Of a stretch of 64,000 bases of DNA, positions 2,385 to 6,983 are shown piece by piece. This DNA is from Paenibacillus sp. YPG26 (GTDB lineage Bacteria > Bacillota > Bacilli > Paenibacillales > Paenibacillaceae): the NCBI RefSeq assembly GCF_023704175.1, contig NZ_CP084530.1, positions 663,501-727,500 on the forward strand. Reading direction: 5' to 3'. Positions within the stretch are counted from its first letter, which is position 1, and each line of letters begins with the position of its first letter. A program made the translations under genes and the position numbers. The notes below the pieces were generated by a model. The model was not told the DNA's origin. It saw nothing but the letters and a program-made list of their open reading frames with translations, and did no database searches.

Positions 2385-2562
2385 AGGTGTTCCCCCTTTT
2401 GGTGAATCAACGTTTTAATTAGAGCCCTTTTTGAGCCGGATGTCAACAGGTCATTCCCTAGAAATCAAGGCCCGGTAAGGCTTGAAGGCCGCTGAGTGTT
2501 TCCTAGGTAGCTGCTCGGGGTAAGTACAGTCTGAGCATCTCACACCGGAAGGAGAGTTATGT

Positions 2563-2856
2563 ATGCGCGCAGATGTGCAAAATTTGTTTATCCGAATTCA
2601 CATGCTCCACAAAGCTGGAATGGAAGATATTAATATGGGGGACATGCTGCTGCTGCTTGAGAAGCATGGCTACAAGGTTGCCGAGCGTGAAGTGAAGCAG
2701 GAGCTCGAGAGGCTGACCGAGGACAATTTCCTCACGCCCCACGATGATCAATATTCAATTACCGGTGCGGGGATTGAAGAGCTGAAAGAGATCAGAGCCG
2801 TGCTTCATGGACTCTGCAGCGAGGTTCTTCAGCCGGAGGCGGAACAGACAAGATAA
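2563..2856 (+). CDS. Small winged-helix-like protein of unknown function
   Basis: This 97-residue protein has a good ribosome site (GGAAGGAG) ahead of ATG. I do not recognise the family. The layout resembles a winged helix: a helical start, a recognition-helix-like stretch (REVKQELERLTEDNFL), a short hairpin (TPHDDQYSIT) and a final helix, as in PadR- or RpoE-delta-like folds. It lies between the fRMsr gene and the peptide-receptor locus, with a terminator-like hairpin after it, so it appears to be its own unit. A DNA-binding role is only inferred. Confidence 0.6.
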   Translation: MRADVQNLFIRIHMLHKAGMEDINMGDMLLLLEKHGYKVAEREVKQELERLTEDNFLTPHDDQYSITGAGIEELKEIRAVLHGLCSEVLQPEAEQTR

Positions 2857-2892
2857 TCAAGGTTTAGCTGATATATAACATAGCGAAAAAAA

Positions 2893-2970
2893 GGCGGCTC
2901 TATTACTTATTTCAGAAGGATTTTCCATCTAATCCGGTGAATAACTAATAGGGTGGCCTATTATTTTTTT
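2893..2970 (+). terminator. Imperfect hairpin with T-tract after the 97-residue gene
   Basis: The region 2893-2911 (starting GGCGGCTCTATTA) pairs imperfectly with 2939-2958 (ending TAATAGGGTGGCC). A run TTATTTTTTT (2961-2970) follows. It separates the small gene from the receptor promoter. Confidence 0.6.
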
Positions 2971-2980
2971 AATTAACCAT

Positions 2981-3009
2981 TTGTTAAAAATATGCAATTT
3001 TGGTATTAT
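2981..3009 (+). promoter_or_regulatory. Promoter of the peptide-receptor gene
   Basis: TTGTTA (2981-2986) and TATTAT (3004-3009) are separated by 17 bases. The expected start near 3016 gives a short leader holding the ribosome site AGGAGGTG (3022-3029). The -10 region GTATTATTATAGA resembles that of the peptide-gene promoter at 4475. Confidence 0.65.
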
Positions 3010-3033
3010 TATAGATAGATTAGGAGGTGCTGA

Positions 3034-4428
3034 ATGGAGTCTATGAGCTCAATTCGTTCGGAAATTGAGGATCACCTTTCGAGCTCCGGTTATACACTCA
3101 CCACATTCGGACACCTTTCCGGAATGAACAGGGGCAGTCTTAGCGCAATTCTGCACGGAACTCCCCCAAAGCCTATAGCTATAAGACAATTAGACATTAT
3201 TACAGAGACGCTGGGATACCCGGAAGGGTGGTTCTACCATTTATATCTGGATGAGTGTTTTGCCGGAACGAAGGTTTCGCGAAGACGGCTGGAGCCTTAT
3301 TTGATTCGATGTGCCGAGCTGAACAAGGAGGAATGTCTGAAGGCGGCAATTGTAAGATTGCTGGAGACACCCAAACCGATTGGGATTCTGTTCGATATAG
3401 GCGAGAAGCTATATCAGAAGGGCCGAATAGCGGAATCGGCCTTGTTCCATGAAGCTGTGGCGGAGATGGAGAAGGACAGCCATTCCGAGCGTCTCGCCAT
3501 AAGTCAGTACCGGTTGTTCATGGGAAAGCAGGGACCGGATGCGGAGGAGAACTGGAAGGCCGTGATCCGGTTCGAGCCTTTTCGCAAGCGGCTTCCGGAG
3601 AATCACCAGCTTGATGCCCTTCTGAAGCTTGCTAATGTCTGCTTTACACTGCATAAGTGGAAGGAAGTAGAGAAGTACTCTGATGAGCTGAGAGCATTGG
3701 CCCAGGCCGTATACCGGGAACAATTGAGACGGAAAGTACGGGAGAAGTCTTGTGAAGTGCTGGATACAGAACGGCACCTGGTGGTCTATTATGGTCAGGG
3801 CTATCTCCTGAAGACGGTCGCTCTCCAGAAGCAGGATCTGTATGATAAAGCGAAGAAGTACGTCACCGGCTATGCAGACTTAAGCTGGTTCGAGAATTTG
3901 AACGAAATAGGCTGGATGGAAGTCAAGAAATTCAAGGTCTGGGCCCGGGCGAATGCCTATACGCTGGAGATGCTCACTGGGAACATTGATATTTTGCCGG
4001 ATTACTGTCAATTTCTGCAGGATCACCCTGAAGAGATTCTTCCTGGTCTGCTGACCATTGTTGAATCGGCGAATAAATACGGTTTCTATGCCGACCCTGT
4101 TATTGAACAGTGCTCCCAGGTGATCCAGAAGCTTAACAATCAGAACCCCATTGAAGTGGACAGGCATTATTCCTACCGCTACCAGCTCTCGATCTACCAT
4201 TTCAGGAAGAATCAATATATAGAGGGAATAGCCCACATCCTGGTTGCCCTGAAGCTGGCTTACCTGCAGAACAATGATAGAGATGTCATTCAGAGTGTGA
4301 CCTTATTTGAGGCTTACAGGGCTCATGCATCGGAACAGCAGAAGAGGGAATACCAGCTTTTGATGGAGGAGATCAGAAGCAAGGAGAAAGGTTATCCTAC
4401 CGTGGGCCGCCGCTATCATTTCGCATAG
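3034..4428 (+). CDS. RRNPP-type peptide receptor (HTH plus TPR; AloR/AimR-like)
   Basis: The 464-residue protein starts with a helix-turn-helix of about 65 residues (LTTFGHLSGMNRGSLSAIL), followed by a long all-helical region with the look of TPR repeats (for example FDIGEKLYQKGRIAESALFHEA). This is the plan of RRNPP quorum-sensing receptors, which bind an imported short peptide in the TPR groove and change transcription or a partner protein. The length and the missing phosphatase-type N-terminus fit the AimR-like receptors (AloR) described in Paenibacillus better than Rap proteins. A 39-residue secreted pro-peptide gene follows at 4586 and a Spo0E-family gene at 4948, as expected for a receptor/peptide cassette linked to sporulation. 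The start is set by AGGAGGTG six bases upstream. The peptide match is inferred from position. Confidence 0.85.
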   Translation: MESMSSIRSEIEDHLSSSGYTLTTFGHLSGMNRGSLSAILHGTPPKPIAIRQLDIITETLGYPEGWFYHLYLDECFAGTKVSRRRLEPYLIRCAELNKEECLKAAIVRLLETPKPIGILFDIGEKLYQKGRIAESALFHEAVAEMEKDSHSERLAISQYRLFMGKQGPDAEENWKAVIRFEPFRKRLPENHQLDALLKLANVCFTLHKWKEVEKYSDELRALAQAVYREQLRRKVREKSCEVLDTERHLVVYYGQGYLLKTVALQKQDLYDKAKKYVTGYADLSWFENLNEIGWMEVKKFKVWARANAYTLEMLTGNIDILPDYCQFLQDHPEEILPGLLTIVESANKYGFYADPVIEQCSQVIQKLNNQNPIEVDRHYSYRYQLSIYHFRKNQYIEGIAHILVALKLAYLQNNDRDVIQSVTLFEAYRAHASEQQKREYQLLMEEIRSKEKGYPTVGRRYHFA

Positions 4429-4450
4429 TAATCAATTTCGCTGAAAAATC

Positions 4451-4480
4451 TTTACAAAAATAGAAGTTACCTAGTATTAT
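4451..4480 (+). promoter_or_regulatory. Probable separate promoter for the pro-peptide gene
   Basis: TTTACA (4451-4456) and TATTAT (4475-4480) have an 18-base spacer. The leader of about 95 bases runs to the pro-peptide. The string TATTATAGA is shared with the receptor promoter, which could be a common binding site or just a similar -10 element. Confidence 0.55.
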
Positions 4481-4585
4481 AGACTTATAGGGAATATTAT
4501 CCAAATTAGTATAACCCTGTACTACTCACAGATCTATTTCGGCATAAGAGAATGAAATAAAGTCCTGAATCAGGAGGTGAGCAGA

Positions 4586-4705
4586 ATGAAGAAGGTAATC
4601 TTGTCTCTGGTCTTGGCTGTAGGAATCTTTAGTGGCGTTGCTGCTGCAGCACCAGCTTCTCACGGCGGTATTCAACCTTTGCTCAACCATGGCGTTGGCG
4701 GCTAG
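4586..4705 (+). CDS. Secreted signalling pro-peptide (AloP/Phr-like)
   Basis: This gene encodes 39 residues. It has a strong ribosome site (AGGAGGTGAG) and a clean Sec signal peptide: MKK, a hydrophobic core (VILSLVLAVGIF), then SGVAAAA with an A-x-A-type cleavage site. The remaining tail, APASHGGIQPLLNHGVGG, is small, glycine-rich and ends in HGVGG. Phr/AloP precursors follow this plan: Sec export, extracellular trimming to a 5-10 residue peptide, uptake by an oligopeptide permease, and binding to the neighbouring RRNPP receptor. The gene lies 157 bases after the receptor, on the same strand, with its own promoter and a strong terminator. The mature form is not known; the C-terminal 6-10 residues are the best guess. 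Confidence 0.85.
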   Translation: MKKVILSLVLAVGIFSGVAAAAPASHGGIQPLLNHGVGG

Positions 4706-4721
4706 GGAATCATACCCGAAG

Positions 4722-4744
4722 AGCACTCGAGAGAGTGCTTTTTT
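4722..4744 (+). terminator. Terminator of the pro-peptide gene
   Basis: The stem AGCACTC (4722-4728) / GAGTGCT (4733-4739) is followed by TTTTT. It begins 16 bases after the pro-peptide stop codon, so the peptide mRNA is short. Confidence 0.9.
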
Positions 4745-4947
4745 AATTTCATAGACATTAAGCCGGATGGAATGACTGTAGAATTATCAGGTGCAACCGA
4801 TAGATACAGATATATAGTGCTTGATATGCAGGTCGTTCGCAGCTGGATAATTCCGACATAAATCCTGATTTTTTGTTTTTGAAAAATATGTTTTTTTGGC
4901 ATCATGGGGTATGATAAGCTGGTAATGATAGGAGAGAAGGTGAGAAT

Positions 4948-5166
4948 ATGGCATCCAAGGCTTATCAACCGCATGAACGACCTAATAAAGGCAGCAGAGT
5001 AAATGAAGAACTTCTTACGATTATAGAGAGTCTTAGATACGAACTGGCGGCTATGGCTGGAGAACAGGATTTCACCAATCCCCATGTTCTGGAGCTCAGC
5101 CAGCGGCTGGACAAATATATCGTTATGGCACAACACCAAATGGTCAGCGGTTATGCAGTGGAGTAG
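4948..5166 (+). CDS. Spo0E-family aspartyl-phosphate phosphatase
   Basis: The 72-residue protein has the Spo0E-like pattern: a first helix (LLTIIESLRYEL), a short loop (TNPHVLEL) and the signature SQRLDKYI at residues 51-58. Spo0E-like proteins dephosphorylate Spo0A~P and so delay sporulation. The ribosome site is AGAGAAGGTGAG. It lies directly after the receptor/pro-peptide pair, which hints that the signalling locus feeds into the Spo0A phosphorelay, but it has a spacer of 242 bases and so may be transcribed separately. The family call is confident; the link to the receptor is inferred. Confidence 0.85.
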   Translation: MASKAYQPHERPNKGSRVNEELLTIIESLRYELAAMAGEQDFTNPHVLELSQRLDKYIVMAQHQMVSGYAVE

Positions 5167-5196
5167 ATTATGGCTAATTGCCTGTGTAAAATAACA

Positions 5197-5240
5197 TAAG
5201 CCGCCTTAGCTTGAATCTGACAAGCATAAGGCGGCTTTAA
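5197..5240. terminator. Bidirectional terminator between spo0E-like gene and hydrolase
   Basis: TAAGCCGCCTTA...GCTT pairs with AAGC...ATAAGGCGGCTTTA. It lies between two convergent genes. Confidence 0.8.
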
Positions 5241-5255
5241 GGCGTTCGGGTATTC

Positions 5256-6242
5256 TTAGTGCTGCGGCGCAGAAGTAATAGAGATGCCGGACTGGGTGGG
5301 CTGACCCGCGTCTATCCTTGAAGTAGAGCCTTCAAGAACTCCATCTATGAAAGCGTGCACCTTCCTGGTGTAGCCTTCGGGGTCCACTCCGTAGGCTTTG
5401 GCATGCTTGGCCCCGTCAATGATTAGCAGATCCCTGATTCCAGACTTGGCATCATACATATCCCTGCTCATACGGGTAGGTACATAAGTATCCGCCGAGC
5501 CATGAATGAACAACACGGGCAAGAGACTCTGCCGAACCGCCCGGATAGGGCTGACCTGGTCAAGTCGGAACCCCGCCTTGCGTTCAAGGCGCTTATCAAT
5601 GAGAGACATGAGAGGAAACGCGGGCAGCTTGTTCAGAACCGTCAGTTGATAACGGATTAACTCGGTCAGATCGGAATAAGGGCAGTCGGCAATCACAAAT
5701 TGGACGTTCGGATGGGCGATGCTCAAGTATTCCAGAACTGTTCCACCCCCCATAGACTGACCATGAAGTCCAATCAGGACATCCTCTCCGTAATGTTCGC
5801 GAACCCAGCCCACCCATACTTCGATATCATATTTCTCTTGGAAGCCGTAGGTGGTATAACGGCCTTGGCTTCTGCCGTGGCGGCGCTGATCCACAAGCAG
5901 AACGTTAAATTCCTTGTCCTCGAACATGCCTGCGAATTGAGAGGATACCTCTAAGGCCCCCGTATATCCATGTACGATGATAGCCCAGCGTGGGGAGCCT
6001 GGGTGGGATTCCAGCACATGTCCCCTTAACAGCAGGCCATCGCGTGAGGTAACGCTAACTTCCTTTTTGATCAGAGCTTCAAATTTCTCACGGGAGAACA
6101 CTCCTGTCTTCTCCATAAATTTGAACCGCCCTTCGTACGTCTGCGGCCGCATTTGCGTAATCTGACGGAAGCCATACCGGGTGAGACCGCTCAGGGTAAG
6201 CAAGATAATGAGTACTACAATAATCACAACGGTGTATGTCAT
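5256..6242 (-). CDS. Membrane-anchored alpha/beta hydrolase (YqkD-like)
   Basis: This 328-residue protein begins with one membrane segment (VVIIVVLIILLTLSGL), so the hydrolase domain is probably anchored to the cell membrane. The fold is clear: oxyanion region VHGYTG near residue 90, nucleophile elbow GQSMGGG, acid loop HGSADTYVP and a late histidine in GAKHAKAY. The closest recognised type is Bacillus YqkD, an uncharacterised peptidase/esterase-like hydrolase. The substrate is unknown. It is transcribed alone, with the ribosome site (revcomp of TCCTCC) just before ATG. Confidence 0.8.
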   Translation of the reverse strand: MTYTVVIIVVLIILLTLSGLTRYGFRQITQMRPQTYEGRFKFMEKTGVFSREKFEALIKKEVSVTSRDGLLLRGHVLESHPGSPRWAIIVHGYTGALEVSSQFAGMFEDKEFNVLLVDQRRHGRSQGRYTTYGFQEKYDIEVWVGWVREHYGEDVLIGLHGQSMGGGTVLEYLSIAHPNVQFVIADCPYSDLTELIRYQLTVLNKLPAFPLMSLIDKRLERKAGFRLDQVSPIRAVRQSLLPVLFIHGSADTYVPTRMSRDMYDAKSGIRDLLIIDGAKHAKAYGVDPEGYTRKVHAFIDGVLEGSTSRIDAGQPTQSGISITSAPQH

Positions 6243-6404
6243 GAGAGAGATTCCTCCAAACCTGGTTCTTAATGCTTATATTATCACCGAAATGTTAGCT
6301 GGAATATCGTCTCTGTAAAATTGTTGTCAAGACTTTGACGAGAACGGAGTAAGTATGGTTACCTAGGTTAAGTGGTTAGAACTGCTCAAGGAGGAGTGGA
6401 CAGA

Positions 6405-6983
6405 ATGTACAGATGCGGGGGAGTCATTCCTGAGCTTCATAGCAGCCGCCTGCGGCTTAGAAGGCTGGAGGATAGTGACGCGGCACAGCTCTTCAAGTAT
6501 TGGGGGGATGACGAGGTCGTCAGGTATCTGAACATGTCCAGACTGGAAACAGTACAGGATACGCTGGATATGATTAACTTGCTTAATGGCTTGTCCGAGA
6601 GCGAAGATACCCTGAGGTGGGGCATTGAGCTGAAGGAAACCGGCGTTCTGGTCGGCAGCTGCGGATTCAATGTATGGCAGCTGGCCGGAGCCAACCGGGG
6701 GGAGATCGGCTACGATCTTGGGGTAGATTACTGGGGCAGAGGTTATATGCCGGAGGCTCTGCTCACCCTTATGGAATTCGGCTTTTCTGTGATGGGGCTT
6801 AACCGGATTGAAGCGCTTGTGCTGCCGGAGAACAGCGCCTCAAGAAGGATGCTGAACAAGCTTGGATTTCAAGAAGAGGGGCTGCTGCGGGAGTATCAGC
6901 AGAATGAACAGGCTGAAGGGTATATTGATCTGTATTTATATGCGCTTTTGAAAAGGGAATTTGTGCAGAGGAGCGTGACATAG
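6405..6983 (+). CDS. GNAT N-acetyltransferase (RimJ/RimL type)
   Basis: The 192-residue protein has the RimJ/RimL layout: an opening strand (LHSSRLRLRRLEDSDAAQLF), the central GEIGYDLGVDYWGRGYMPEAL coenzyme-A binding region, and the closing NSASRRMLNKLGFQEEGLLRE. These enzymes acetylate protein N-termini, antibiotics or small amines; the substrate here is unknown. The start at 6405 is preferred to an upstream GTG because AAGGAGG (6388-6394) sits at the right distance. Its stop codon overlaps the GTG start of ecfT by one base, so the two are translationally coupled. Confidence 0.82.
   Translation: MYRCGGVIPELHSSRLRLRRLEDSDAAQLFKYWGDDEVVRYLNMSRLETVQDTLDMINLLNGLSESEDTLRWGIELKETGVLVGSCGFNVWQLAGANRGEIGYDLGVDYWGRGYMPEALLTLMEFGFSVMGLNRIEALVLPENSASRRMLNKLGFQEEGLLREYQQNEQAEGYIDLYLYALLKREFVQRSVT

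Follow-up and report, generated by a model that had tools for sequence, protein, structure and literature searches.

The described systems closest to the locus analysed here are the Alo systems of Paenibacillus polymyxa, so named by Voichek et al. in 2020, who found spo0E-like genes immediately behind 6 such systems in P. polymyxa and 12 in P. terrae (PMC7425212). The parts of that paper on Alo13 report that addition of the AloP13 hexapeptide SHGRGG lowered spo0E expression 4.5-fold after ten minutes and that, when Alo13 was rebuilt in B. subtilis, AloR13 switched on the promoter of the neighbouring spo0E, whose activity the peptide reduced from 10 nM upward; fragments of 9 of the 14 P. polymyxa Alo peptides were detected, and the question of an Alo phenotype was left open (PMC7425212). 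Bernard et al. (2023), who cite Voichek et al., describe viral RRNPP pairs beside spo0E-like genes (PMC10075063). In the arbitrium system of Bacillus phages (AimR-AimP-AimX) an HTH-plus-TPR receptor, a peptide gene and an adjacent target are likewise found together, and there, as in Alo13, the peptide reduces expression of the target (PMC7425212). The Rap-Phr systems of Bacillus, in which Rap itself is the phosphatase (PMC7425212), combine a TPR receptor with a secreted pro-peptide and lead to the phosphorylation state of Spo0A.

The window, by which we mean the whole 64,000-nucleotide stretch of Paenibacillus DNA that was analysed, carries a locus that resembles Alo13 in having an HTH-plus-TPR receptor, a short Sec-type pro-peptide ending in xHGxGG and, immediately after these and in the same orientation, a spo0E-like gene. 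Re-checking of the open reading frame list places the three genes consecutively on the + strand at 3034-5166, the arrangement given in a preliminary description of this DNA, and they make up the one Alo system found in the window genome. To the left lies a gene for a small winged-helix protein of 97 aa (2563..2856, +; family matches weak), and to the right, convergent with spo0E, a gene on the - strand (5256..6242) which, from its fold family, we take to be an alpha/beta-hydrolase; an Rfam search of 2400-5400 gave zero matches at gathering scores. The locus differs from arbitrium in having a gene of the Spo0E-like type next to the pair, and no AimR chain was among the sequence matches of the receptor at E up to 1. 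It shares with Rap-Phr the TPR receptor and a Phr-like secreted pro-peptide (the PhrK family match is below cut-off), but has a DNA-binding receptor beside a separate phosphatase gene. With the viral pairs it shares an RRNPP pair next to a sporulation-regulator gene; the pairs treated in that report are phage or prophage genes (PMC10075063), whereas the window spo0E neighbourhood is conserved across the genus.

The receptor (3034..4428, +, 464 aa) is preceded by a putative promoter, TTGTTA-N17-TATTAT (2981..3009, +), that can be aligned with the corresponding stretches of P. zeisoli and P. tuaregi and was found by a pattern scan that returned 7 sites against 5.4 expected. Its structural model (pLDDT 89.3) has an HTH at the N-terminus (about residues 7-60) followed by a TPR-type superhelix, as the preliminary description had proposed, and the structural matches include NprR, Rap and AimR, so that the RRNPP TPR superhelix fold is present; Foldseek by itself ranks general TPR proteins highest. 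Positions 12-76 give profile matches to HTH regulators, the protein as a whole has zero Pfam matches, NCBIfam matches are sub-threshold and PHROG matches are weak. Close homologues are found in Paenibacillus and Brevibacillus: P. zeisoli (89% identity), P. tuaregi (80%), P. shirakamiensis (66%) and Brevibacillus laterosporus, which has two receptors 54-55% identical to that of the window. Altogether 174 receptor matches occur in 37 of the 59 genomes searched (own included), and the receptor counts that follow rest on the best 150 of these, without the weakest 24. One Alo receptor each was found in the window genome, in P. zeisoli and in P. tuaregi, against up to 17 in other genomes, and in a species with a single Alo pair an Alo phenotype would be easier to test.

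For comparison with Alo13 we used eight genomes (loci L216-L223) of which six match the published primer exactly and two with one mismatch; because of these primer matches, and because the peptide ends in SHGRGG in four of the eight, these alo13-type loci were taken to represent the P. polymyxa group. In phmmer searches calculated for the small set of alo13-type locus ORFs, the window receptor matches the eight spo0E-adjacent receptors with E values of 8.8e-132 to 3.9e-138, in line with homology to AloR13 along its full length; it is 55-56% identical to them over the N-terminal portion and 43-46% over the TPR region. In a tree it falls into one set with the alo13-locus receptors, nested inside the Alo family (support 90/91). 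Homology and tree position thus support the identification, also made in the preliminary description, of the window pair as an AloR-AloP system of the RRNPP type.

The pro-peptide gene (4586..4705, +) starts 157 nt past the receptor stop and has its own promoter, two points that set it apart from Alo13; there is no overlap with the receptor, unlike in many relatives. Its 39-residue product lies within the Alo pro-peptide range of 32-50 aa with an N-terminal hydrophobic signal, so the short Sec-type pro-peptide ending in HGVGG that had been proposed is indeed encoded. The six codons for NHGVGG (4685..4702, +), the presumed mature hexapeptide, encode the same residues in all three orthologues: the two others retain the signal sequence and an identical end, and the base differences among them in these codons are all synonymous. 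NHGVGG is identical to AloP13 SHGRGG at 4 of 6 positions, and the sister peptides of Brevibacillus, whose reading frames overlap the receptor end, finish in DHGIGG and EHGVGG. An inner SHGG lies ahead of the terminal NHGVGG in the window pro-peptide, and GHGNG occurs twice in two alo13-type peptides, so inner signal repeats may be more widespread. Downstream of the gene is a terminator hairpin, AGCACTC-GAGA-GAGTGCT with a T run (about 4721..4745, +), that a simple terminator scan does not list.

A blind scan for reading frames of 28-62 aa with a charged start, a hydrophobic core and a ribosome-binding site found a pro-peptide-like candidate at the receptor end for 111 of 149 unbroken receptors (from the best 150 of 174), against 2/149 in antisense, 0/149 inside the receptor and 1/149 at 500-780 bp downstream; 94 of the 111 candidates end in HG or NG followed by at most five residues. 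On these grounds the pro-peptide ORF is not a chance one. An orphan receptor beside an ORF for some other small secreted protein might be argued from the 157-nt gap, which differs from the overlap in many relatives, but the scan and the conservation of NHGVGG and of its Brevibacillus counterparts make this highly improbable. The 38 receptors without a candidate include 14 that are linked to spo0E, and since a looser scan recovers a peptide candidate for two or more of the 38, L066 and L007 (P. zeisoli) among them, the blind scan under-counts peptides. P. shirakamiensis (L004) has kept the receptor and spo0E, and neither a recognisable peptide gene nor the AGGGAA element described below was found at its 6250-6810; it may have a receptor without its signal, or may have lost the peptide.

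The third gene (4948..5166, +) codes for a 72-aa protein that matches the Spo0E family PF09388 with 45.4 bits (cut-off 23), which bears out the family assigned to it earlier. It contains the motif SQRLDKYI, whose S, Q, L and D are invariant in an alignment of five Spo0E-like proteins; S-Q-x-L-D is the signature motif of Spo0E-like phosphatases. A search against PDB sequences at E up to 1 gave four designed proteins and nothing else. Since the protein matches only a short motif family, and the window genome has three Spo0E-like matches, the pair might signal while this protein acts on another response regulator than Spo0A, or is inactive. We regard this as unlikely: besides the invariant residues, S-x-x-L-D is present in 38 of the 39 Spo0E proteins linked to Alo receptors, and the window genome has a Spo0A_C match. 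The likely connection of the pair with sporulation by way of spo0E, anticipated as a possibility in the preliminary description, finds support in homology and conservation. The two further spo0E-like genes of the genome (L037 and L038, G000:C1 near 1114265 and 1127923) are separated by about 13.5 kb and face in opposite directions; in the locus DNA compared they share 849 bp that are inverted and identical throughout.

A search for PF09388 in the 37 genomes with receptors gave 153 matches. Of the 150 best receptors (of 174), 39 are followed by a co-oriented Spo0E at a distance of up to 1.5 kb, and for 2 of the 150 the nearest Spo0E lies within 1.5 kb upstream; a linked pair occurs at least once in 33 of the 37 genomes. 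A receptor tree with 145 members (built by a quick method, with 27 open forks; it omits one broken receptor and six short fragments and includes two further Brevibacillus sequences) requires 10 changes of the linked state, and thus the linkage has been gained or lost repeatedly. In 30 of the 39 linked loci a fold-based scan finds a terminator-like hairpin in the interval from receptor to spo0E, and reading by eye of the DNA upstream of 28 of these genes for common operators gave nothing firm. The preliminary description knew of no account of the third gene beside the pair; spo0E-adjacent Alo pairs are published, and so a gene of this sort in this place has been described before (PMC7425212, PMC10075063). 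Pair and spo0E together are of a known sort, and what is distinctive here is the history of a resident spo0E and the peptide's own promoter.

That history was examined at 34 same-genus hydrolase loci, own included (two outside-genus matches, G036 and G041, were dropped beforehand, and two further same-genus genomes lacked a hydrolase match at the cut-off). A convergent Spo0E adjoins the hydrolase in 29 of the 34, and an Alo receptor is nearby in only four of these 29, in the window genome, P. zeisoli, P. tuaregi and P. shirakamiensis, so that the gene order is conserved beyond the window genome. A tblastn search at E 1e-5 found zero Alo receptors at the other 25 spo0E-hydrolase loci (about 3 kb each) and at the five hydrolase loci without Spo0E. 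The winged-helix gene is retained on the far side of spo0E in 8 of the 25 AloR-less loci. In a tree of 65 Spo0E proteins, the alo13 Spo0E not being among them, the window protein groups with the hydrolase-linked Spo0E (98, starred), apart from most other Alo-linked Spo0E; this tree has 67 columns, 32 of its 61 forks are open, and long branches are flagged between its two main groups.

The window spo0E therefore appears, on synteny above all, to be an older resident, and insertion of receptor and peptide between the winged-helix gene and spo0E is the simplest history for the window clade. It is new, as far as we can judge, that the window spo0E seems not to have arrived with its Alo pair. A travelling three-gene cassette was considered as the origin within the genus and rejected, given spo0E-hydrolase neighbours in 29 of 34 loci, 25 of them AloR-less. 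For Brevibacillus L006 such a cassette may apply: spo0E follows the Alo pair there, its Spo0E sits on a long branch of the Spo0E tree, and no hydrolase was found in the 11.4 kb of locus examined. The tree, though weakly resolved, and the clear synteny suggest that the Alo-spo0E neighbourhood arose at least twice, on two distinct spo0E branches, and the comparison shows a route by which a sensor pair can come to adjoin an existing sporulation brake.

By analogy with Alo13 we consider it rather probable that the locus is an Alo quorum-sensing system in which AloR is an activator, NHGVGG its off-switch and the adjacent spo0E among its outputs. After Sec-dependent export the 39-aa pro-peptide would be processed to its C-terminal end, probably NHGVGG, which would re-enter through an oligopeptide permease and bind the TPR domain of AloR. 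Peptide-free AloR would be a transcriptional activator that the peptide switches off; this direction of control, and control of the window spo0E by the receptor, we infer. Spo0E would dephosphorylate Spo0A~P and hold sporulation back, so that at high density spo0E expression would fall and sporulation would be licensed.

The promoter signals bear directly on what AloR controls. Before the pro-peptide gene is a putative promoter, TTTACA-N18-TATTAT (4451..4480, +), conserved as TTTACA-N17/18-TATTAT or TATGAT in the three species where a peptide was found; with the hairpin after the gene, it agrees with the separate promoter and terminator claimed in the preliminary description. Just after it, in an inverted repeat (RNA fold z -2.2), lies AGGGAATATTATCCA (4489..4503, +), a candidate AloR operator of which AGGGAATATTATCC forms part; it is conserved in the three species, the motif having been picked by eye, and has one exact copy in the window genome and one mismatched copy inside a longer ORF. 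The pattern [AG]GGGAA-N2-3-TATC stands before the peptide in these three species and before spo0E in 0 of 4 window-clade loci, whereas it is found in 8 of 8 alo13-type spo0E promoters, where [AG]GGGAAGGTATC lies 60-61 bp ahead of the point at which the primer site marking the start of spo0E ends. The combined pattern occurs four times in the flanks of the best 150 of the 174 receptors, against 0.9 in single-base shuffles; three occurrences are the window-clade peptide promoters, and the fourth falls in an unrelated flank, in opposite orientation.

Before spo0E is another element, the old promoter element of that gene, TTTGGCATCAT-N4-TATGATA (4895..4916, +), which in the window reads TTGGCATCATGGGGTATGAT and has a second, mismatched copy inside a longer ORF of the genome. 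A loose form, TTGRCA-like-N8-TAnnAT, is present ahead of spo0E in 47 of 65 loci, among them the window and loci that lack AloR, where single-base shuffles give 0.5 on average and never more than 3; it is common to two distant Spo0E branches. Since AloR-less loci have it, the element is no evidence for control by the window receptor.

These data lend some weight to a different reading, to which we give a real, though lesser, chance: AloR directly targets the peptide's own promoter in a self-regulating loop, and spo0E is a mere old neighbour with a promoter of its own. The position of the GGGAA-type element, the spo0E promoter element shared with AloR-less orthologues and the terminator between peptide gene and spo0E all speak for it and against AloR control of spo0E. 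P. shirakamiensis, where receptor and spo0E are kept but no peptide or operator was recognised, also counts against such control. Nevertheless, the operator pattern was drawn after viewing both groups, each of them one lineage; the repeated adjacency of Alo receptors and spo0E favours a functional link; and Brevibacillus L006, of a sister lineage, likewise has spo0E after its pair. In addition, L219 holds a second match to [AG]GGGAA-N2-3-TATC about 3.5 kb upstream (3535 bp before the primer-site end and about 180 bp before the start, at -3357, of a neighbouring Alo receptor ORF), perhaps another target of the same regulator. The shared element suggests, as a lead, that AloR acts at the peptide promoter, action at spo0E also being possible, and its target may be the peptide promoter, spo0E or both; AloR control that includes spo0E remains the reading we prefer.

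Two further candidate signals were rejected. A palindrome-like ATCAT-N5-ATGAT before spo0E, considered as an AloR-specific operator, is also found at hydrolase-linked spo0E without AloR nearby. A likeness of the aloR and spo0E promoters (23 of 30 positions) reached a score attained by 2 of 200 shuffle pairs in the window; in two orthologues 15/200 and 113/200 shuffles did so and the best pairs were other stretches. A possible Spo0A-box-like stretch was seen ahead of the resident spo0E genes.

The comparison of the two groups also allows a wider reading, tentative and on balance doubtful, in which AloR-AloP is a plug-in sensor module that was independently captured by different resident spo0E genes. 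In the window clade the pair would have come to lie beside a hydrolase-linked spo0E, with a peptide promoter activated by AloR, which would so drive its own signal directly; in the alo13-type case the receptor's DNA-binding half would be fixed, as would the promoter of spo0E, while the sensing half and the peptide are exchanged. At L216-L223 three receptor types are found beside one near-constant spo0E and promoter. The N-terminal 77 positions of the eight receptors are 95-100% identical, and the TPR part has 50-64% identity between types and 86-98% within them; the peptides end in SHGRGG (four), FGHGIGG or FGHGTGA (two) and GHGNGH (two). It looks, from these alignments, as if the sensing half is exchanged or fast-diverging and the DNA-binding half fixed. 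Two to five Alo receptor ORFs lie within about 10 kb upstream of spo0E at these loci; other genes are interspersed, and some of the receptor ORFs are short or split.
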